Origin: Bacteroidota bacterium
GTDB lineage: Bacteria > Bacteroidota > Bacteroidia > Palsa-948
Direction: 5' to 3'
Assembly (NCBI GenBank): GCA_016213405.1
Contig: JACRAM010000116.1
Coordinates: 64,269 to 128,268 of the forward strand
Length of the DNA: 64,000 bases
Each line of letters begins with the position of its first letter. The first letter of the stretch is position 1. Positions 4,355 to 60,519 of the stretch are shown piece after piece. The notes beneath the pieces are model-generated. The model was given only the letters and a program-made list of their open reading frames with translations, was not told the DNA's origin and did no database searches. The translations under genes and the position numbers were made by a program.

Positions 4355-5040
4355 CAACACACGCAGGAAAAGAAAAAGAAATAGAGCAAGACTGGGATAT
4401 TTACTGGGCGGATAAAGACAAGCCGGGAAATGCTGTTTATGATTTTCTTGCTGGAATATACCGCAGACTCATTGTCAAAAATATTTTAAATCATTTTATT
4501 AAAAAATATTTTTCAAAAGGAATTAATGTTCTGCATGCTGGCTGCGGAAGCGGGCAGGTGGATGCTGATATTGCCGGGTATATTAACATTACTGCTTTGG
4601 ATATTTCCGCAAACGCGTTGAAAATTTATAAGAGCATTCATGGAACTGATTGTAAAACAGTGCAGGGCAATATTTTCTCTTTGCCATTTGAAAATGATTC
4701 TTTTGACGGCTTGTATAATTTAGGTGTGCTTGAGCATTTTACGCAAGAAGAGATAAAACAGATTTTAATAGAATGCAAGCGCGTGATAAAACCCGGAGGT
4801 AAAATAATTATTCTATGGCCTCCCACATTTGGCTTTACCGTATTTATACTGGACAGTGCGCATTTTATTCTGAATAAGATTTTCAGAATGAATATTAAAC
4901 TCCATCCTGACGAAATTACACGTGTGAGATCGCGCAAGCATGCAATACAAACTTTTGAAAGCGCTGGTTTTAAAATGCTTGAATATTATTTTGGAATAAG
5001 AGATATTTTCACGCAGGCAGTTGTTGTAGCTAAAAAATAG
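4351..5040 (+). CDS. Class I SAM-dependent methyltransferase
   Basis: A 229-residue methyltransferase of the Methyltransf_11/25 type. Motif I VLHAGCGSGQVD lies at about 60-71, an acidic loop LDIS follows, then SLPFENDSFDGLYNLGVLEHF and the post-motif KPGGKIIILWPP. It overlaps the upstream glycosyltransferase by four bases (ATGA). The operon context suggests methylation of a sugar or of a lipid-linked glycan intermediate. The substrate cannot be read from the sequence. Confidence 0.8.
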   Translation: MTTHAGKEKEIEQDWDIYWADKDKPGNAVYDFLAGIYRRLIVKNILNHFIKKYFSKGINVLHAGCGSGQVDADIAGYINITALDISANALKIYKSIHGTDCKTVQGNIFSLPFENDSFDGLYNLGVLEHFTQEEIKQILIECKRVIKPGGKIIILWPPTFGFTVFILDSAHFILNKIFRMNIKLHPDEITRVRSRKHAIQTFESAGFKMLEYYFGIRDIFTQAVVVAKK

Positions 5041-5056
5041 TTTTTACTTTCGATAT

Positions 5057-6067
5057 ATGATACTCGTAACAGGCGCAACCGGATTTATCGGAAGGGAATT
5101 TATTCGGCAACTGTCAGAAAAAACAAATAAGAAAAATATTCTATGTCTTGTATATGATATTTGTGACAGTGAACTTGAGCGCGCAGGTAGAAAAAATCTA
5201 GATGATTTAGGAATTACTTATTTGCCGATTGATCTGGTGTCTGGAAGAGGAATGGAAAAAATACCGAAATCGCCCGACACGATATTTCATCTGGCATCCG
5301 TCACCATCACTGCGTCAAGAGATCACAGGGTAAATGATGTGGGCACTAAAAATCTGATTGATGCGATTCAGCCTATAAAACCCGCTATGAATTTTATTTA
5401 TACGAGCACGATTTGTGTAAATGACATGCGAAAAGATTTTTCTGCTCCTGTTACAGAGTCAATGGAAACGCCTGTTCATCCGGCAAATCTTTATGGTAGA
5501 AAAAAACTGATAGCGGAAAATTTTCTCAGGAAGTCTGCTTCTGAAAACAAATTTTCATTATCCATTATCCGTGTAACCGGAGTTTATGGTGTTGGTGCAA
5601 GAAAGAACGGATTGTTTGATAGTGTGGAACAGTTGGTTAAAAAAAAATCTTTGCTTATGAGGGTAAATTGGCCTGGTAAAATCAGTATCATTCATGTAAA
5701 TGACATGGCTGCATTTATTTATGGTGTATCTGAAAAGCAGCCGACACCTTCCTCCTGCGAAGTATACATTCCTTCCATAGAAGCAATAACTTTGCAAGAA
5801 ATGAGCAAAATAGTGCATAGTGTTTTGTGTATTGATTACAAAGAATTTCGTTTACCGAATTTTTTCTGGAGCATCTGCCGTTTCTTTGCCCGAAATAAAA
5901 ATGTAATTGAATACATTATGCCGCATAAATTGTATGATCGCTTCTGGCAAGCATGTTTGCTTGTAAATAATGAATTCTGGAATCAATCCGAAAAAATATA
6001 TTCCGTTATTGATGGTTGGAAGCCGATGAAATATGCTGAATACTTTAATCAAAAGAATAAAAAATAA
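5057..6067 (+). CDS. NAD-dependent epimerase/dehydratase (extended SDR)
   Basis: A 336-residue extended SDR with the nucleotide-binding glycines in GATGFIG (6-12), a Thr-Ser-Thr active segment near 116-118 and the catalytic Tyr146 and Lys150 (YGRKK). The C-terminus is longer than in core UDP-glucose epimerases and carries a hydrophobic patch ([10 protein letters not shown]), as in related SDRs of polysaccharide loci. It begins 16 bp after the previous stop and ends in a TAATG junction with the acetyltransferase. It probably epimerises or reduces an NDP-sugar for the same glycan. Confidence 0.8.
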
Positions 6068-11500: not shown

Positions 11501-11912
11501 GTGGAGAACCGATACGGTGAATCTTGATACCATGGCAGGAAAACCCGCTATGCGTGTGCGCTTTCTGGCGATAAGCGGTTACGGCAACCAGCTTTACATT
11601 GATAACATCAACCTGTCGGGAACTCCGGTGGGAGTTGCTCCAATCTCCAATCTCACTTCCCAAATCTCTGTTTATCCAAACCCATCAAGCGGAAAGGCAA
11701 ATGTGATAATTAGCCAATTTGAAAATTTGAAAATGAAAGGCATTGAAATTTATAATGTGTATGGAGAAAAAATTTATTCGGCTGTTAATTTTCAAATCAA
11801 CTCATCTTCAAATTTTCAAATTGATTTGTCCTCCCAGCCGGAAGGTGTTTATTTCCTCAAAGTTATTTCTGAGCAGAATACGGTTGTCAAAAAAATTGTC
11901 ATTAGCCGATAA
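8508..11912 (+). CDS. Large secreted BNR/sortilin-type propeller protein with T9SS sorting domain
   Basis: An 1134-residue exported protein. Residues 1-20 form a signal peptide ending ANAQ. Repeated BNR/Asp-box motifs (KSTDGGATWNS, KTTNSGTSWVN, RSTNGGTSWTS, RTTNGGTIWNS) form one or two beta-propellers to about residue 760. An adhesion-like region follows, and then a type A T9SS sorting domain (VYPNPSSGKANVI ... PEGVYFLKV ... KKIVISR). It is predicted to cross the outer membrane through T9SS and stay surface-bound or be released. The protein resembles BNR-repeat glycosidases in layout, but no catalytic residues were identified. A canonical promoter lies at 8420-8450. The next gene starts on the last base of its stop codon. 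Confidence 0.9.
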   Translation: MNKFFTSAFMLVSFCFFANAQQYLNQPILQNRPAEKKVTFWDVEKAFNEYWKDKQRGETEGENASEGGYEQFKRWEAFMKQRTFPSGNFPSPEILFNEHLKFKNSDGYRKGINTAAANWSFLGPHVIPGSGGGSGRINCIAFDPNNSNIIWIGAACGGLWKSTDGGVTWATSNTDLLPSISISDIAIDPSNPQIMYLATGDKYGVYYQYEVWGHYSAGVLKSTDGGATWNSTGMNYTISNGALIQRLILDSLNTTILYAATNTGIFKTTNSGTSWVNVKAGKFYDIEMHPTNNQILYAGDSALVYRSTNGGTSWTSMGLTSNGRNSIAVTRAVPNAVYVWSSAGLSYSSNSGVSFTNRTDPTSYCTPYGYYDMVIDVSPVNQNVLVAGGLLVALSTNGGTTWTTVSDWNSFPAPDYVHADHHALSFVPGSSTKILACNDGGIFQTLDQCSTWTDLSNGIDIKQYYRFTNSFLTPTLMFAGAQDNGTDKITGLNTATRVYGADGEDCLVDFTNDNIVFVSSQGGNFQRSTDGGLSFSGMGASGCDWTSPIAMDLSNHNTMYVGGSSISKSLDNGVTWNTLPGAFDGSCMYSLEVSPSNGNYVYAATFGNIYRTTNGGTIWNSITGTLPVGSAAISGIAINGSNPDAVWVTLSGFSAGNKVYYTGNGGASWSNISGTLPNIPVNCVEYQNGSNDIVYIGTDLGVFYTDATLNNWFSYNTGLPNVIIDELEVYYPSSKLRAATFGRGIWESDLQISTLQNVDASAMTMAYPPTQTCDTSIAPVVTIRNAGVNTLTSVDLKYKMDAQPLQTYSWSGSLASLATASITLPVYVLLSGTHTLTAYTTNPNATTDQNNLNDTIVRTFTILANPVALQAPVQEGFVSAAFPPTNWTIENSSSLLSRSTAAGGFGNSAESMISNFYSISSGTDMLISSFLDFQNINPPIRLYFDVAYATYSPSYNDTLAVDLFDDCLASSNIVYKKGTTTLATAPPTTSVFVPLPTQWRTDTVNLDTMAGKPAMRVRFLAISGYGNQLYIDNINLSGTPVGVAPISNLTSQISVYPNPSSGKANVIISQFENLKMKGIEIYNVYGEKIYSAVNFQINSSSNFQIDLSSQPEGVYFLKVISEQNTVVKKIVISR

Positions 11913-12826
11913 TGCAGTTGCGTGTTTTTTTTAACATACTCTCGCTGGCGCTCTTTTTCTTTATCGGAATAATAGGGCACTCGCAGGAAGAAGACGAACC
12001 CGCAGTAAATAAAAAAAGCGGAAAAGGTTTTCATGCCGGGGTTTATCTCGGCTCTTTCTTCGCCAACAAATACACCACAGCGCTTTATGACGGCTATGGT
12101 TATGATGTGGATGGAAAGAAAAATGATTTCCCCAACAGTTTTATGTACCGCAGAATTGTGATTGATTACGGTGGCGGCAACGGGCAAACCGATGTGGTGA
12201 TGCAGGCGCTCAACGTAAGTCATAACGACTGGGCTTTTGATGCCACCGATATGCCCTCCAACCTCAAATACAATCCTGCCGTGATGGTGGGAATGAATTT
12301 TTTTTACGGCTTCACAAAAAAAGATGCGCTCCTGCTCAACGCCACCAGTTCAAAACTCACGCTCAACGGAAATTTCACCATCGTAATCACCGATCCTCTT
12401 ATCGGTCCGCAGCAGCCGGGTTACCAGAACATAAAAACATTTTCCATCACAGGCGCTGAACAGCGTTATATGTTTCAGTTGGGCTACCGGAAAATTCTGG
12501 GCGATAACGATGTGTTTAATTTTTTTGTTGAAGCGGGTCCATCGCTTAACATTGCCAAATACGCCCGCAATCAGATTGCCATAAATAATCTTCAGATAGA
12601 TTTGACTGCCTATTACAGCCAGCCCTACTATGCCACTTACCGCGCAAGGTATCTTAACGGAGCCGGCTTGGGCGCTTTTGCCGGGTTAGGATTTGAATTC
12701 AGGGCAAATGCCAAATGGATTTTGCAGGCGCTGTATGCTCCCTCTTATGAAAAAATTAACATAGGCGAAAATCCCAAATCAACATTGCAGAACGCGCTTG
12801 GCTTGAGGGCTTGTTACAGGTGGTAA
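11912..12826 (+). CDS. Outer-membrane beta-barrel protein
   Basis: A 304-residue protein with an N-terminal signal peptide (hydrophobic core LALFFFIGIIG, cleavage near SQ-EE) and alternating amphipathic strands with many Gly, Tyr and Phe. It ends in CYRW; a terminal aromatic is typical of barrel proteins. Its ATG overlaps the TAA of the large T9SS protein, so the two are probably co-expressed. The last 82 bases (12743-12824) occur again at 13545-13626, beyond the convergent toxin-antitoxin pair. No specific family was recognised. Confidence 0.75.
   Translation: MQLRVFFNILSLALFFFIGIIGHSQEEDEPAVNKKSGKGFHAGVYLGSFFANKYTTALYDGYGYDVDGKKNDFPNSFMYRRIVIDYGGGNGQTDVVMQALNVSHNDWAFDATDMPSNLKYNPAVMVGMNFFYGFTKKDALLLNATSSKLTLNGNFTIVITDPLIGPQQPGYQNIKTFSITGAEQRYMFQLGYRKILGDNDVFNFFVEAGPSLNIAKYARNQIAINNLQIDLTAYYSQPYYATYRARYLNGAGLGAFAGLGFEFRANAKWILQALYAPSYEKINIGENPKSTLQNALGLRACYRW
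12743..12824 (+). repeat. Long direct repeat, copy 1 (3' end of the barrel gene)
   Basis: These 82 bp encode the C-terminal residues SYEKINIGENPK to CYRW and recur at 13545-13626 with one mismatch (position 12810: c here, t in copy 2). The two copies bracket the toxin-antitoxin genes at 12827-13496, with 802 bp between equivalent positions. Confidence 0.95.
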
Positions 12827-13282
12827 TTATTCTCCTGCTTCTTTCAGCGCCAGTTTTTCAATTTCAACTGCAAGGCGGAAGTTTGTATTCCTGATTTTTG
12901 AAAGAATGGGTTTGATGGACGGAATAATCCCTTTTAGTTTTGCTTTTACAATTACACCTATCGTGCCTGTGATTTCCAGCCCCAGTTTTTCAGCAATGCT
13001 CCTTGCCTTATAATCGTCAAGTATCAAAGTGCTGCCGGGGGTTTCAATGGCGAGAGCTATGGCGCTGGCTTCGCCTTTGTCTAATTGTATTTCCAGATTT
13101 TGCTGTCGCGATTTATCAACCGGAGATTTTATTTCAATCCAGTCAGGCAGGGGCTGACCGAATTCAGATGCCACTTCAAGCGTGGTGAGAATTTGCCCGT
13201 ATGTTTTTCTTAAAAGGTCCAGTTCGCCAATGCTTGCTAAAACAATAAAGCAGCTGGTGTCAGAAATAATTGTTTTAGGCAT
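12827..13282 (-). CDS. DUF3368 PIN-domain-like toxin
   Basis: A 151-residue protein beginning MPKTIISDTSCFIVLASIGELDLL, with a PIN-type first acidic residue in SDTS, a conserved LDKGEASAIALA segment with Asp/Glu near residues 68-72, and LILDDYKARSIAE near 87. These are the acidic positions of DUF3368 PIN-like nucleases. Family knowledge pairs DUF3368 with UPF0175 antitoxins, and such a gene overlaps it by 8 bp upstream (13275-13496). The predicted activity is RNA cleavage, neutralised by the partner. Its stop codon abuts the convergent barrel gene with no gap, and the pair is bracketed by an 82-bp direct repeat. Confidence 0.85.
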   Translation of the reverse strand: MPKTIISDTSCFIVLASIGELDLLRKTYGQILTTLEVASEFGQPLPDWIEIKSPVDKSRQQNLEIQLDKGEASAIALAIETPGSTLILDDYKARSIAEKLGLEITGTIGVIVKAKLKGIIPSIKPILSKIRNTNFRLAVEIEKLALKEAGE

Positions 13283-13496
13283 TCTTCACATCTCTGGAAA
13301 TATCAGAGGCGGGGTAGTTGAAAAGAGAGACACCGTATTTGCCGAGCAGTTCAGAAAAAACACGCTTGGTGAGCCCCACCAGTTCAGCCGCCTGTCCCAA
13401 AGAAAGTTTTCCCTGCTCATAGAGTTTTGCGGCAAGCATCTGCGCTGCTTCGTTTTCATCAATATTATCAGGCAGATTGAGCTTTAGTGTTTTCAT
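13275..13496 (-). CDS. UPF0175 family antitoxin
   Basis: A 73-residue protein (MKTLKLNLPDNIDENEAAQM...) with the UPF0175 layout: a short N-terminal strand, then a helix-turn-helix-like segment KLSLGQAAELVGLTKRVFSELLGKYGVSLFNY. UPF0175 members are predicted antitoxins and DNA-binding regulators of the adjacent PIN/DUF3368 toxin. It is first in a two-gene minus-strand operon and overlaps the toxin by 8 bp, the usual antitoxin-then-toxin order. Confidence 0.85.
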   Translation of the reverse strand: MKTLKLNLPDNIDENEAAQMLAAKLYEQGKLSLGQAAELVGLTKRVFSELLGKYGVSLFNYPASDISRDVKNA

Positions 13497-13544
13497 AATG
13501 TAAAGTTACAAATTATTATGGATTCTGCAATTGCTCTGCGTCCT

Positions 13545-13626
13545 TCTTATGAAAAAATTAACATAGGCGAAAATCCCAAATCAACATTGCAGAACGCGCT
13601 TGGCTTGAGGGTTTGTTACAGGTGGT
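13545..13626 (+). repeat. Long direct repeat, copy 2 (displaced 3' end of the barrel gene)
   Basis: This 82-bp copy matches 12743-12824 with one mismatch. It still encodes the barrel C-terminus (ending LRVCYRW) and is followed by an in-frame TGA at 13626-13628. No start or upstream part of the gene is attached. It lies just beyond the promoter side of the toxin-antitoxin operon, as expected for a target duplication produced by cassette insertion. Confidence 0.95.
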
Positions 13627-13705: not shown

Positions 13706-14017
13706 GTGGCAAATAATTTCCCACAGGTGACAAACAATTTCCCATAGGTGACAAATAACTTGCCACTGGTGACAAATCAAATCCCGTAAGAGCGAGCCGT
13801 TCCGCTTCGTCACTGAACAATTCCGCTTCGTCACAAAGGCATTTAGTTCTGTCATTAAACAATTTAGTCCCGTCACTAAACAATTTAGTCCCGTCACTAA
13901 ATATTTAGTCCCGTCACTGAATCATTCAGTCCCGTCACTGAATCATTTAGTCCTTTGGCTGAATCACTGCGCCTCGTCACTAAAACATTTAGTCCCGTCA
14001 CTAAATCAATAAAACAT
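13706..14017. repeat. Tandem array A, 21-bp period
   Basis: About 14 units begin with GTGAC or GTCAC and repeat every 21 bp, with rare 19-20 bp units. The first four are of the type GTGACAAAC-AATTTCCCATAG; later units read GTCACTAAAC-AATTTAGTCCC. Many units are small palindromes: ACTAAA pairs with TTTAGT, and where the left arm reads ACTGAA the right arm can read TTCAGT, a compensatory change. No spacers separate the units, so it is not a CRISPR. The flanks (13627-13705 and 14018-14074) hold no gene; 14045-14072 holds short AAACCTT/AACCTT repeats. Confidence 0.9.
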
Positions 14018-14367: not shown

Positions 14368-16500
14368 ATGAAAACCAAAACTTTAAGCCCCCTCCCTGAC
14401 GCTTCGGTCAGGGCTGATAGAATCGTCAGCCTGACCTCTCCCGTTAGGGGAGGAATCATTCTCCTCACCGTACTATGTTTCATTTTTCACCCTTATGGGG
14501 GGATTAAGGGGGGCTTAGTGGCTTCCTGCTCCGCTCAGGGCATGTGGACGCAGAAAGCAAACTTTGGTGGTGGGGCAAGAATTGCTGCTGTCGGCTTTTC
14601 CATTGGTACAAAAGGATATATTGGATCTGGAAGGGATGGCTCGACTCTCTATCAGGATTTCTGGGAATGGGATCAGGCAACAAATGTCTGGACGCAAAAA
14701 GCCAACTTTGGCGGCACACCAAGAGAATATGCTGTGGGTTTTTCAATAGGCACTAAAGGATACATAGGTACTGGAAGTGATGGAATTACTGGTAGCAAAC
14801 AAGATTTCTGGGAATGGGATCAGGCAACGAATGTATGGACACAGAAAGCAAACTTTGGCGGAACAGCAAGATATGGGGCTGTTGGATTTTCAATTGGAAC
14901 AAAAGGATATATTGGCACGGGAGAAGACTCTTATTTTGGTCCGATCCGTGATGATTTCTGGGAATGGGATCAGGCAACGAATGTATGGACTCAGAAAGCA
15001 AACTTTAGCGGAGGGGCAAGATATGTAGCTGTTGGTTTTTCTATTGGCACAAAAGGATATATTGGTTTGGATACGATGAAGAATGATTTCTGGGAATGGG
15101 ATCAGGCAGGCAATACATGGACACAGAAAGCAAACTTTGGCGGGGGAGCAAGAAACAATGCGGTTGGATTTTCTATCGGAACTAAAGGATACATAGGAAC
15201 TGGGCAGGATAATTCTTATAGTGTTACAAAAGACTTCTGGGAGTGGAATCAGGCAACTAATTTGTGGACTCAGAAAGCAAACTTTGGCGGAACAGCAAGA
15301 CACTTTGCGGTTGGTTTTTCTATTGGCAACAAAGGATATATCGGAACAGGAGGCTATCAGTTTGTGGGTGACACAGTTTTTTGGGAATTCTATGACATTA
15401 ATATATCACCGGGGGCTGGTAATCCAATTTGCAGCAATCAATGTAATGGTACTGCAAACGCAAGCGCATCAGGCGGCACTCCGCCTTATTCTTATTCGTG
15501 GAGCACATCGCCCATTCAAACCACTTCAACAGCCACAGGGCTTTGCGTAGGCACCTACTCAGTTACTGTTTCTGATTCAATAGGAATTGCAACCAATACA
15601 GTCGCTATCAGCGATCTTCCTCCTCCATCCGCTCCGCCCATCTGCATGGTAACGGTAGATTCTCTTTCTCAAAACAATATTATTATATGGGATAAAACTT
15701 CTTTTGCATCTGCCGACAGCTTTATCATTTACCGGGAAATCGGCACCAACAATTATCAGCGCTTAGGAGCTGTGCCGTATGATTCGCTGAGTTTATTTGT
15801 TGATACCGTGCGCGCAAAATATTTTCCCAACACGGGCGACCCCAACGCAGGCACGTATCGCTATAAACTTAAAATGCGTGATAGCTGCGGCATCCTCAGC
15901 ACCGCACTCAGCCCGTATCACAATACCATCTATATGCTTAACAACAGCGGAGCATTTTCATGGTTGCAGCTTTACACTGTAGAAGGAAGTTCTAATCCTG
16001 TTATCAGTTATATTCTGATGCGCGATGACAACAGCACTGGTGCCTGGCATGCAGTTAACAGTGTATCGGGCACACAGCAAACGGTAATTGATCCTTCTTA
16101 TCTCACTTACCAGACTACCGGCTCATGGAGGATAGAAACGCAGTGGAGCATCGCTTGCACGCCAACAATAAAAAATCCTATAGCAGAAACTTTTATTTCA
16201 TCGCGCTCAAATGTCTATAAAGTAGCGGGAGCAGGTGTAAATTCTATAGAGAATGATTTGCAAATAACTATTTCTCCCAATCCCACCAGCGGGCTGTTTA
16301 ATGTGCAGATGAGCGGGTTTGCAGATGTGAAGATGAACAACATAGAAGTTTACAATATATATGGTGAATGTATTCATCCGCACATCCGCACATTTTCTAA
16401 TCAGCAAATTGATTTGAGTTCTCAGCCGAACGGAATTTATTTTCTTCAACTAAAAACTGCGGAAGGAATGGTTGCAAAAAAGATTGTGGTGCAGCGGTAA
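14368..16500 (+). CDS. Kelch-repeat secreted protein with T9SS sorting domain
   Basis: A 710-residue protein. After the start come about 45 residues encoded by a composite palindromic repeat (14385-14516) that also supply the hydrophobic signal core ILLTVLCFIF. Six propeller repeats follow (WTQKANFGG ... GFSIGTKGYIGTG ... DFWEWDQATN), then a SprB-like repeat (SASGGTPPYSYSW ... CVGTYSVTVSD), a fibronectin-like stretch with paired Ser/Cys-rich segments, and a type A T9SS sorting domain (ISPNPTSGLFNVQMSGF ... PNGIYFLQL ... KKIVVQR). The ATG at 14368 is preferred over the upstream in-frame position at 14329. It is paralogous to the gene at 1-1322. Predicted surface or secreted protein; ligand unknown. 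Confidence 0.88.
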   Translation: MKTKTLSPLPDASVRADRIVSLTSPVRGGIILLTVLCFIFHPYGGIKGGLVASCSAQGMWTQKANFGGGARIAAVGFSIGTKGYIGSGRDGSTLYQDFWEWDQATNVWTQKANFGGTPREYAVGFSIGTKGYIGTGSDGITGSKQDFWEWDQATNVWTQKANFGGTARYGAVGFSIGTKGYIGTGEDSYFGPIRDDFWEWDQATNVWTQKANFSGGARYVAVGFSIGTKGYIGLDTMKNDFWEWDQAGNTWTQKANFGGGARNNAVGFSIGTKGYIGTGQDNSYSVTKDFWEWNQATNLWTQKANFGGTARHFAVGFSIGNKGYIGTGGYQFVGDTVFWEFYDINISPGAGNPICSNQCNGTANASASGGTPPYSYSWSTSPIQTTSTATGLCVGTYSVTVSDSIGIATNTVAISDLPPPSAPPICMVTVDSLSQNNIIIWDKTSFASADSFIIYREIGTNNYQRLGAVPYDSLSLFVDTVRAKYFPNTGDPNAGTYRYKLKMRDSCGILSTALSPYHNTIYMLNNSGAFSWLQLYTVEGSSNPVISYILMRDDNSTGAWHAVNSVSGTQQTVIDPSYLTYQTTGSWRIETQWSIACTPTIKNPIAETFISSRSNVYKVAGAGVNSIENDLQITISPNPTSGLFNVQMSGFADVKMNNIEVYNIYGECIHPHIRTFSNQQIDLSSQPNGIYFLQLKTAEGMVAKKIVVQR
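14385..14516. repeat. Composite palindromic repeat in the signal-peptide region (AAGCCCC...GGGGCTT family)
   Basis: The 132-bp block is bounded by AAGCCCCC and GGGGGGCTT. It contains a CCCTGAC/GTCAGGG hairpin (from about 14391), CCTCTCCC/GGGGAGG (14435-14453) and a G-rich tail (14491-14516). It is 44 codons long and fully in frame. Blocks with the same end signature occur at 19946-20049 and 54465-54551, also inside genes. Confidence 0.75.
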
Positions 16501-27212: not shown

Positions 27213-27310
27213 CATGCCCCCTGCCCTAAAGGGAGCCAAACAGCTATGAAAAAACAAACCAACTTTACTAACACTTCTTCCTTGGCTTCCCCCTTTAGGG
27301 AAGGGGCATG
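27213..27310. repeat. Palindromic element spanning the MATE start codon
   Basis: CATGCCCC at 27213-27220 is inverted at 27303-27310. The arms continue as CCCTAAAGGGAGCCAA and TTGGCTTCCCCCTTTAGGG. The 98-bp element contains the ATG at 27246 used by the MATE gene. A half-site of the same type (GCCCCGGCCCTAAAGGGAG) lies at about 38533-38551. Confidence 0.8.
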
Positions 27311-28658
27311 GCGTTCTCATTTTCGCAAAACCATTCTTCTTGCCTGGCCGGTGTGTCTGAGCAATGTAGGTCATGTAATGGTGGGTGTGGTGGATATTGC
27401 CATGGTAGGCGGAATAAAGGAAGATGTTTTCGGATATAGCGGAACCACTGCGCAGGCAGCCGTATCGCTCGCCAATGGATTTTATTTTCTTGTCCTTGTT
27501 TTCGGGTTTGGTGTTTCGTACGGAGTAACGCCTCTGGCGGCTGAGGCAGACAGTTCCGGAAATATTAATGAGAACAAGCATCTGCTCAGTCATGCGCTTA
27601 TTGTAAATGTGGTCACTAATGGAATATTGTTTCTCTTTCTTCTTGCCATGTCTCCAGTGCTTCGCGTTCTTCACCAGCCGCAGGATGTGGTGGCTCTTGC
27701 CATTCCGTTTCTGAATGTGATGATGCTTGGAATGATTCCGCTGGCAGTGTTCACAGCGTTCAAGCAATTTGCAGAAGGACTTTCCTTCACGCGCTTTGCC
27801 ATGTTCATCACCATCGGCACCAATCTTCTGAATGTTCTGTTCAACTGGATTCTCATCTACGGAAAATTTGGTTTCACGGCAATGGGTGTTCAAGGTTCGT
27901 GCTGGGCGAGTTTTTTTGCACGGATGCTCATGGCGCTTGCCATGTTTTTGTATTTGTATTACAGCAAGCATTTCAGAAAATACCGCGAAGCATTTGCCTT
28001 CAAAGACCTTTCTCTTCAGCGCATGAAAAAGATTTTCAGCATTGGCGCCACCTCCGGTTTACAATGGGTTTTTGAAGTGAGCGCCTTTGCCATTGCACTG
28101 GTGATGATCGGGTGGATTGGAAAAAAAGAACAGGCAGCGCATCAGATTGCTTTGCAGCTGGCTGCCATGACCTATCTGATTGCAAGCGGCATCAGTTCAG
28201 CAGCAAGCGTGCGCGTGGGCAATCAGCTCGGCATGAAAAACATTTCCACGCTGCGCGAAGTGGCATTCAGCGCGTTTGCCATGGTGATTATCTCTCAGGC
28301 ATTTTTTGCAATACTGTTTATTGCATTTCGCTTTCTCCTTCCTTCAATTTTCAACCATGAACCCGATGTGCAGGCAATTGTTTCTTCCTTATTATTAATA
28401 GCCGCCCTCTTTCAGGTTTCTGACGGCATTCAGATTGTCGGGCTGGGTGTTCTCCGCGTAGTAAAAGACATAACGCTTCCTACCTGGATCACGTTTATCT
28501 GCTACTGGCTCATCGGGCTGCCCTGTTGTTACTTGCTTGCTTTCACTTTTGGTTTTGGAGTGCAGGGAATCTGGTACGGGCTCACCATTGCTCTCACGCT
28601 GGCAGCAATTTTTCTTTTCCTGAGATTTAATTATGTGACGAGGAGGCTGCAGTTCTGA
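27246..28658 (+). CDS. MATE family efflux transporter (NorM/DinF-like)
   Basis: A 470-residue inner-membrane protein with twelve predicted helices. MATE signatures include LLAWPVCLSNVGHVMVGVVDIAMVG near residue 35 and the matching second-half segments. It is expected to export cationic drugs or metabolites using a Na+ or H+ gradient. Residues 1-24 (MKKQTNFTNTSSLASPFREG) are encoded by a palindromic element and are not family-like. An original start may have lain nearer FRKTILLAW. The last 45 bp before the end (28602-28646) recur at 29288-29332 beyond the DUF4160/DUF2442 cassette. Confidence 0.9.
   Translation: MKKQTNFTNTSSLASPFREGAWRSHFRKTILLAWPVCLSNVGHVMVGVVDIAMVGGIKEDVFGYSGTTAQAAVSLANGFYFLVLVFGFGVSYGVTPLAAEADSSGNINENKHLLSHALIVNVVTNGILFLFLLAMSPVLRVLHQPQDVVALAIPFLNVMMLGMIPLAVFTAFKQFAEGLSFTRFAMFITIGTNLLNVLFNWILIYGKFGFTAMGVQGSCWASFFARMLMALAMFLYLYYSKHFRKYREAFAFKDLSLQRMKKIFSIGATSGLQWVFEVSAFAIALVMIGWIGKKEQAAHQIALQLAAMTYLIASGISSAASVRVGNQLGMKNISTLREVAFSAFAMVIISQAFFAILFIAFRFLLPSIFNHEPDVQAIVSSLLLIAALFQVSDGIQIVGLGVLRVVKDITLPTWITFICYWLIGLPCCYLLAFTFGFGVQGIWYGLTIALTLAAIFLFLRFNYVTRRLQF
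28602..28646 (+). repeat. Direct repeat, copy 1 (3' end of the MATE gene)
   Basis: These 45 bp encode AIFLFLRFNYVTRR and recur at 29288-29332 with three mismatches. The copies bracket the DUF4160/DUF2442 pair, with 686 bp between equivalent positions. Confidence 0.92.
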
Positions 28659-28710
28659 AATAACATTTTATCTTTGGCGAGTAAAGTCGTATATAATTTT
28701 GTATATTTGG

Positions 28711-28995
28711 ATGGGAAAATTATTAATACTTGCACGATATGTCTTTCTGATTTATGGAGTTGATATTAACGAAACACGAAAGCATGTTCATGTTACATTT
28801 TCTCATAGAGGGTTTAAGCGTGCCTGCAAATTCTGGCTTGAACCAAAAGTTGAGCTTGATGAAAATAAAAAGGGAAATTTTTCGGAAGTGGAATTAAATG
28901 AGATTAAAAAATTAGTTACAGAGCATAAAACTATTTTGTTGGAACAGTTGGAACTTTTTTATAATCAAAAACCTGTAAAAGCAATAAGAAAATGA
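28711..28995 (+). CDS. DUF4160 protein (candidate toxin-antitoxin component)
   Basis: A 94-residue cytosolic protein starting at the ATG at 28711 (MGKLLILARYVFLIYGVD). The central HVHVTFSHRGFKRACKFWLEPKVEL matches DUF4160, with conserved histidines in the KHVHVTF segment. DUF4160 genes are commonly found next to DUF2442 genes, as here, with a 4-bp overlap. The pair is a suspected but, to my knowledge, not firmly characterised toxin-antitoxin-like module. TATCTTTG at 28669-28676 may be its -7 box, 35 bp upstream. Confidence 0.82.
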   Translation: MGKLLILARYVFLIYGVDINETRKHVHVTFSHRGFKRACKFWLEPKVELDENKKGNFSEVELNEIKKLVTEHKTILLEQLELFYNQKPVKAIRK

Positions 28996-29282
28996 TGACA
29001 ACTACCACGCATATGCCCGCTATCCGAAATATAGAGTTTATTAACAGCAGCATTATGTTTATCTATTTAGATAATGACAGAACATTCATTGTCCCGCTCG
29101 ATAAATTTCCTGCCATTCAAAACCTGACTGCCGAGCAAAAAAAGGATTACGAAATAATTGATGAACATAATTTATCTTTCATTGCCATTGATGATGTGTA
29201 CAGCATTAATGATTTAATTGGAATTAATCACAATACCTCCATTGCTGCCGAACCACAAGCACCCTACGGCAAAAAGAAATAA
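28992..29282 (+). CDS. DUF2442 protein (partner of DUF4160)
   Basis: A 96-residue protein. The pattern ELxNSxIMFIYLDNDRTFIVPLDKFP is the usual DUF2442 core, where a short strand-rich domain binds its partner or DNA. It overlaps the DUF4160 stop by four bases (ATGA), so the two are translationally coupled. The cassette ends 5 bp before a duplicated piece of the upstream MATE gene. Confidence 0.82.
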   Translation: MMTTTTHMPAIRNIEFINSSIMFIYLDNDRTFIVPLDKFPAIQNLTAEQKKDYEIIDEHNLSFIAIDDVYSINDLIGINHNTSIAAEPQAPYGKKK

Positions 29283-29287
29283 CCATC

Positions 29288-29332
29288 GCTGCAATTCTTC
29301 TTTTCCTGAGATTTAATTATGTAACGAGGAGG
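29288..29332 (+). repeat. Direct repeat, copy 2 (displaced 3' end of the MATE gene)
   Basis: This copy encodes AILLFLRFNYVTRR in the MATE frame and then continues open (MNVAGWILNPFY...) until 29527, without a start of its own. It has three mismatches to 28602-28646. Confidence 0.92.
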
Positions 29333-29407
29333 ATGAATGTTGCCGGTTGGATTTTAAATCCATTCTATCAATCCGTAATTACCAATTTCTCTGTTGCAAT
29401 TACCTCA

Positions 29408-36488: not shown

Positions 36489-38525
<2,037 letters not shown>

Positions 38526-38555
38526 AAATGTTGCCCCGGCCCTAAAGGGAGAGAT

Positions 38556-38900
38556 ATCACAAAGAGATAATGTGATATCTTTTTGCATCAATTTAATCTC
38601 ACAAAGAGACAATGTGATGTCTTTTTGCAACAATGTTGTCTCACAAAGAGACAATGTGATGTCTTTTTGCAACAATGTGATCTCACAAAGAGACAATATG
38701 ATGTCTTTTTGCAACAATGTGATCTCACAAAGAGACAATGTGATGTCTTTTTGCAACAATGTTGTCTCACAAAGAGACAATATGATGTCTTCTTGCAACA
38801 ATGTGATGTCACAAAGAGACAATGTGATGTCTTTTTGCAACAATGTTGTCTCACAAAGAGACAATATGATCTCTTCTTGCAACAATGTGATGTCACATTG
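38556..38900. repeat. Tandem array B, exact 21-bp period
   Basis: Sixteen consecutive 21-bp units run from 38556 to 38891 without an insertion or deletion, plus a partial 17th. Two unit types alternate: CTCACAAAGAGACAATGTGA-type and GTCTTTTTGCAACAATGTGA-type, giving a 42-bp higher-order period. Several units are palindromic (ATCACA...TGTGAT; TTGTCTC-ACAAA-GAGACAA across a junction). Because 21 is a multiple of three, both strands stay open and give false repetitive reading frames. A palindromic half-site at about 38533-38551 precedes the array. Region 38901-39100 holds no gene, only a short repeat near 39055-39085. Confidence 0.93.
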
Positions 38901-39054
38901 TGGCGGTATAATGTAAAAAAATGGAGAAATTGCCGGACAAAGAGAAAATTTCTTTGAATTTCATAGCTGAGTGAAGAGCCAGCTTTGTCCCAATAGCTAT
39001 CGGAATGGGTTGTAAGCATAACTTACAAATTACTCACCCACGAAGTGCAACTTC

Positions 39055-60180: not shown

Positions 60181-60243
60181 GAGAGGTGGGAGACGTTGTA
60201 ATTGAAAATTGAGAATGGATAATTGAGGAGAAAAATACCGCAT

Positions 60244-60411
60244 AAGAGGAGGCAGAAATGAAATAAGAGGAGCAAGTTGCCGCATAAGAGGAGGCAGAAA
60301 TGAAATATGAGGAGGCAGATACCGCATAAGAGATGGCAGAAATGAAATAAGAGGAGGCAGATACCGCATAAGAGGAGGCAGAAATGAAATATGAGGAGGC
60401 AGATACCGTGT
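60244..60411. repeat. Tandem array C, exact 21-bp period
   Basis: Eight consecutive 21-bp units with no indel start at 60244, 60265 and so on to 60391. Each begins AAGAGGAGGCAG or ATGAGGAGGCAG, and the second half alternates between AAATGAAAT and ATACCGCAT types, giving a 42-bp superperiod. Diverged partial units flank both ends. Both strands stay open, so translated repeats there are artefacts. A CCCCTTCCCCTAAAGGGG palindrome follows at about 60441-60459. Confidence 0.93.
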
Positions 60412-60519
60412 AAGAGGTCAAAAAAACGCTAAAAACATACCCCTTCCCCTAAAGGGGTAAAAAAACAATAAAAACAACTGCTCCATATAGGACTGGGGCA
60501 AAAATTAAAAATTAAAATC

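Follow-up and report, generated by a model that had tools for sequence, protein, structure and literature searches.

A small toxin-antitoxin (TA) module of a Bacteroidota bacterium lies between two copies of the 3' end of a MATE-family transporter gene, and brackets of this kind are enriched at TA loci across the class. The module was found in a stretch of 64,000 nucleotides, referred to here as the window. In several of the bracketed cases, the two gene-end copies differ mainly at synonymous sites. The explanation that we favour, tentatively and at close to an even chance, is that the TA pair was imported by homology together with an allelic gene end, without a recombinase of its own, and that the resident 3' end was left behind.

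The insert at the MATE transporter gene

The target gene encodes a MATE-family transporter (27246-28658, forward strand; PF01554, 157 bits). Its functional 3' end (copy 1, 28602-28649) and the detached 3' end (copy 2, 29288-29335), both on the forward strand, are identical at 44 of 48 nucleotides (92%), with a start-to-start distance of 686. The sequence-only reading had described 45-bp copies with three mismatches. These were confirmed, and a fourth mismatch at position 46 brings the repeat to 48 nucleotides. The repeat score of 39.2 exceeds the maximum of 18.8 among 1000 swapped-flank comparisons; therefore, the similarity is not due to chance. When a 12-bp in-frame gap was allowed, the match grew nine bases leftward (ACCATTGCT and ACCATCGCT, 29282-29290), and thus copy 2 may start with the final base of the stop codon of the antitoxin gene (29282).

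The DUF4160 and DUF2442 genes are the sole content between the two copies. The DUF4160 gene (28699-28995, forward strand; PF13711, 32.7 bits, cut-off 23) is a predicted toxin gene of the DhiT family, with ATG 28711 as its likely start codon. The DUF2442 gene (28992-29282, forward strand; PF10387, 26.6 bits, cut-off 23.9) is a predicted antitoxin gene of the DhiA family. The toxin gene comes first and overlaps the second gene by 4 bp, which is the DhiTA layout. The left end of the inserted cassette (28650-28710, forward strand) contains the new MATE stop codon. The transporter ends in RRLQF*, its final codons and stop coming from the cassette-adjoining DNA; the termini in congeners are KRLKF*, RRMNIS*, KRMTMQ*, and KRILF*. 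By inspection only, a possible Bacteroidota-type promoter (CTTTGG...TAATTTTG) was located ahead of ATG 28711.

By homology to published pairs, the DUF4160/DUF2442 pair of the window is a predicted type II TA module. It had previously been read as TA-like, and the claim can now be made more strongly, because homologues were experimentally shown to be TA pairs (PMC8198452, PMC12724237). Both toxicity and neutralisation were demonstrated for dhiTA (DUF4160/DUF2442) of Dickeya dadantii, in D. dadantii and in E. coli (PMC8198452). The Dickeya pair gave no plasmid stabilisation in E. coli (PMC8198452); therefore, addiction is not guaranteed for each member. With Thermus plasmids, introduction failed for a construct without the second gene and succeeded for one without the first, and the pair (PEM) prevents plasmid loss (PMC12724237).

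The MATE orthologues of four congeners (G001, G002, G004, and G006; G, C, and L denote genomes, contigs, and loci) share 75-80% amino acid identity and have a single 3' end. Neither the cassette nor a second 3'-end copy is present at these four orthologues. The DNA 3' of the MATE gene is not syntenic in the congeners, and the downstream junction has no syntenic relative. The two window copies match each other at 44/48 positions and any orthologue at no more than 41/48. Their codon differences, two synonymous and two nonsynonymous, do not distinguish a putative imported allelic end from target duplication with decay at this locus.

The same layout had been noticed at a UPF0175/DUF3368 cassette of the window, and it is real. 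The functional 3' end of the ORF at 11912-12826 (copy 1, 12739-12824, forward strand) is 98% identical over 86 nucleotides to a detached copy (13541-13626, forward strand; L194). The companion cassette (12827-13496, reverse strand) consists of UPF0175 (13275-13496; PF03683, 70 bits) and DUF3368 (12827-13282; PF11848, 46 bits), and the DUF3368 stop abuts the stop of the target gene. Units of 42 bp and 21 bp form tandem arrays at 38511-38972, 60212-60421, and 13787-14006, the last directly downstream of this cassette. The window also contains kelch-like repeats of about 147 bp at 471-1261 and 14512-15369, which lie in inverse orientation and are mutually 70-90% complementary.

Bracketed modules across the class

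DUF4160 loci were gathered from 395 genomes of the class, and 100 of these loci were examined in addition to the window. The first test required a direct repeat scoring above 18 between the 700-bp flanks. Ten of 45 DUF4160-DUF2442 pairs were bracketed, compared with 8 of 414 control intervals taken from these loci (about 2%; Fisher 7e-7), and 0.2% of 1000 swapped-flank comparisons scored above 18. The second test used a wider bracket and an identical procedure for the DUF4160, UPF0175, ParE, and GNAT families. Bracketed loci were found at 24/98 for DUF4160, 9/29 for UPF0175, and 9/29 for ParE (24-31%), compared with 1/30 for the GNAT acetyltransferase controls (three TA families pooled, Fisher 0.002); swapped flanks reached at most 1%. 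The split of DUF4160 loci by the presence of DUF2442 is partly artificial, and the pooled 24/98 is fairer because the partner gene at L070, at least, has a DUF2442-like C-terminal end. L102 and L086, each with one copy at the end of a contig, are uncertain and should be discounted, and a few low-scoring matches far from the cassette are doubtful (e.g. L073, L123, and L198); the contrast between TA loci and controls persists. A scan of this kind for flanking duplications had been suggested by the sequence-only reading, and the enrichment that it looked for was found. No empty site carrying the duplication without the cassette was seen in the sampled genomes. In a single-protein scan, a Chitinophaga MAG (L346) was the one relative found, and its bracket is no more than a weak, A-rich stretch of 29 bp.

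The inserts are mostly 520-780 bp long, which is the length of two genes. Most repeats measure between some tens of bp and about 200 bp, and the lengths range overall from 22 to more than 200 bp. At many bracketed DUF4160 loci, copy 2 starts 2-8 bp past the antitoxin stop. In most gene-end cases, convergent ones included, no more than about 9 bp separate the end of the similarity from the target stop codon. The cassettes are either co-directional with the target or convergent (L119, L078, and the UPF0175/DUF3368 cassette of the window). The 3'-end targets include triosephosphate isomerase (tpi, L069), SecA (L070), an M2-type peptidase (L099), the PcrA/UvrD helicase (L119), a YfcE-like phosphodiesterase (L078), the ABC-F ATPase EttA (L196, L200), MutS2 (L199), and a protein whose C-terminus resembles an aminotransferase (L248); L067, L079, and L194 have less conserved targets. 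Except for MATE, these names were assigned by reading the sequences. Every insert examined in detail lacks a recombinase, and the solitary TA copies examined carry no mobility gene. No common core sequence was seen at the boundaries examined, which differ from locus to locus. Most of the bracketed loci lie within long contigs (1.15 Mb for L119). At L079 (G000:C54, about 50 kb), a truncated gene copy is followed by DUF4160/DUF2442, and the repeat (226/241 bp) covers the end of the preceding gene together with the beginning of the intact copy.

A general mobilisation route for small two-gene modules at gene 3' ends had also been proposed. The generality of the layout holds; the route is neither TA-specific nor confined to 3' ends, as some brackets consist of intergenic or gene 5'-end DNA. 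At L184 in G420, copies of the pcrA 3' end (1982-2060 and 5726-5804, 77/79) flank two convergent PMT_2 glycosyltransferase genes. At L343 in G396, the ettA 3' end (2424-2669 and 4463-4708; 246 bp, about 96%) flanks a gene for an AAA_21 ATPase and another gene for which no Pfam match was found. A TA-specific route was rejected on account of these two pairs, which have the identical layout. The ettA remnant in G396 is still an open frame of 83 codons, and the AAA_21 pair resembles a two-gene defence module. The ettA 3' end was reused in at least 3 of the 45 species in the genus of G211 (G014, G211, and G396; L196, L200, and L343), with UPF0175 and AAA_21 as the cargo types. A possible further ettA case in G414 (C1/C227) could instead be due to an overlap in the assembly. 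In both G211 (L119, TA cargo) and G420 (L184, glycosyltransferases), the detached pcrA copy carries GCCAGGCAG, a base not seen among the functional pcrA copies compared. Either a mobile gene end common to the two or a mutation that recurred may account for this.

Origin of the two gene-end copies

For a decaying duplicate, about 47% (45-50%) of the codon differences should be synonymous. The 14 gene-3'-end cases together have 62 synonymous and 33 nonsynonymous differences (p 2.6e-4), with heterogeneity across the cases (p 0.004). The strongest cases, which were selected after the counts were known, are nearly all synonymous: secA (5:0), mutS2 (4:0), ettA (4:0 and 9:1), the M2 peptidase (7:1), and the phosphodiesterase (3:0). 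The copies in these cases look like two functional alleles. Others look decayed (L067, 3:10; L079, 8:7; L200, 3:4). A synonymous bias is absent from the few cases at gene 5' ends. Higher divergence had been taken as the sign of an older event. This is unsafe, because copies differ in many cases mainly at synonymous sites, so that a large share of their divergence may be older than the insertion.

Import with an allelic gene end might have proceeded as follows. A TA module would have entered the MATE 3' end in the window's lineage without its own recombinase. The donor DNA would have come from a close relative, with the 3' end of the target gene immediately before the TA pair. Homologous recombination with the resident would occur in the gene body, and the other end would join inside the resident 3' end. 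The gene would then receive the donor 3' end, followed by the TA pair and by the resident 3' end as the second copy. Once this gene-TA-remnant order was formed, the remnant may act as a right-hand homology arm, which would permit entry into empty sites of relatives despite unrelated downstream DNA. RecA could delete the insert via the repeats; we propose that TA pairs persist there because cells losing the module would be killed.

In several housekeeping-gene cases, the almost purely synonymous differences and the similarity ending at the stop codon suggest an imported allelic end rather than simple duplication and decay, since such an end point is expected when two alleles with unrelated downstream DNA are joined. 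For part of the cases, the synonymous bias favours import over an exact stop-codon insertion with duplication. The tpi remnant in G006 is consistent with import, as it continues into native DNA that matches the intact tpi end and its neighbour at the empty site in G000. So is pcrA in G211, where the functional, cassette-side copy reads ...GAGGG followed by GTGA, with the stop from the insert, and the detached copy reads ...GAGGG followed by ATAG, with the TAG retained. A single pcrA end was found in the other species of the genus examined, except G420, and the DNA downstream of pcrA is not syntenic among congeners. Against import stand the 2:2 ratio at MATE, the decayed L067, L079, and L200, and the unbiased 5'-end cases. 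The secA, ettA, and pcrA copies are mutually about as close as, or closer than, any sampled congener, so import needs a donor from an unsampled close strain. A random right-hand join would not predict that many of the cassettes end 2-8 bp past the antitoxin stop. The import model also presupposes a donor with the TA pair already at the target gene and leaves the first arrival unexplained.

Arrival at new sites would be accounted for by illegitimate repair, which we regard as a serious possibility. Staggered-break fill-in or template switching would have inserted the TA pair and duplicated 48-60 bp of the MATE 3' end, and the detached copy would have decayed. The tight cassette ends, the intergenic and 5'-end cases, and the decayed remnants (L067, L079, and L200) fit this explanation, as do the single-copy empty sites in relatives (MATE in the four congeners; tpi in G000). 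The close relationship of the secA, ettA, and pcrA copies within one lineage equally permits true duplication, and a like pattern was reported for restriction-modification genes (Nobusato 2000, cited in PMC3031569 and PMC1643837). However, the pooled 62:33 bias, with some cases almost wholly synonymous, speaks against duplication, as do the halt of similarity at the stop codon, seen for the majority of gene ends, and the fact that conserved housekeeping genes predominate among the targets. Site-specific integration, in which a trans-acting integrase would insert small circles that contain a gene 3' end as the attachment site, is improbable. It could explain the reuse of the ettA (G014, G211, and G396) and pcrA (G211 and G420) ends within one genus, with cargo that differs at one and the same gene, and the common derived base of the G211 and G420 pcrA remnants; but the inserts examined in detail contain no recombinase, the targets are unrelated, the repeats vary from 22 to more than 200 bp, and no shared core was seen at the boundaries examined. 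It is hardly credible that the repeats are due to chance, to tandem duplication of genes, or to an artefact of assembly. Although L102 and L086 do have a copy at a contig end, the scores are far above the swapped-flank and interval controls, most loci lie inside long contigs (such as that of L119), and tpi and pcrA have empty-site counterparts. For the main cases, pure chance and tandem duplication were rejected on these controls and empty sites.

Homology-anchored import remains our preferred reading, and both routes may operate, with duplication at the first arrival and homologous exchange later. It is conceivable, though doubtful, that gene-TA-remnant cassettes are the form in which solitary chromosomal TA modules spread. 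The displaced 3' end of a conserved gene would then be a portable arm by which ordinary homologous recombination brings the module into the empty site of any relative, whatever DNA lies downstream, and addiction would guard the insert against RecA deletion. TA modules have been called highly mobile, and the fixation of acquired modules is said to be not yet understood (PMC2654758). Should about a quarter of the solitary TA copies in the class keep the signature of their entry, the donor, junctions, age, and target choice could be read from genomes. Bracketed inserts also open a bench test of the part that addiction plays in keeping a repeat-flanked module.

Comparison with known systems

Some genomic islands integrate at gene 3' ends via an integrase and rebuild the gene end. 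The inserts described here likewise leave the gene end intact and displace the old one; in contrast, those examined have no integrase and no common site. Homology-anchored insertion that leaves displaced gene parts was proposed for T6SS effector-immunity modules (PMC5361080). Such homology-facilitated illegitimate recombination, in T6SS arrays (PMC5361080) and in Rhs C-terminal displacement, has one-sided homology and leaves the resident 3' part downstream, as proposed here. The difference is that the displaced part here is the short 3' end of a housekeeping gene, which stays intact and gains an unrelated TA pair.

Among the TA pairs, both DhiT/DhiA from Dickeya dadantii (PMC8198452) and PEM from Thermus plasmids (PMC12724237) have DUF4160 followed by DUF2442, as in the window, and the Dickeya genes overlap like those of the window (PMC8198452). 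Bracketing repeats are present in the window, whereas the accessible parts of these two reports mention none for DhiT/DhiA or PEM (PMC8198452, PMC12724237).

The bracketing pattern itself is already described for restriction-modification genes. In Helicobacter pylori, such genes were inserted with long target duplication (Nobusato 2000, cited in PMC3031569 and PMC1643837). As here, a mobility-free addictive pair lies between long target repeats of variable length. For TA modules with target duplication, only this work and its citations were found among open-licence papers. In the open-licence literature searched, nothing was found on such a pattern for type II TA modules, on its frequency in a class of Bacteroidota-like genomes, or on the allele-like nature of many copies. 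The present pairs are type II TA modules from another lineage, and their copies often differ at synonymous sites and end at the target stop, which pure duplication would not predict. TA modules are thereby linked with the restriction-modification genes, which have a similar pattern in Helicobacter.
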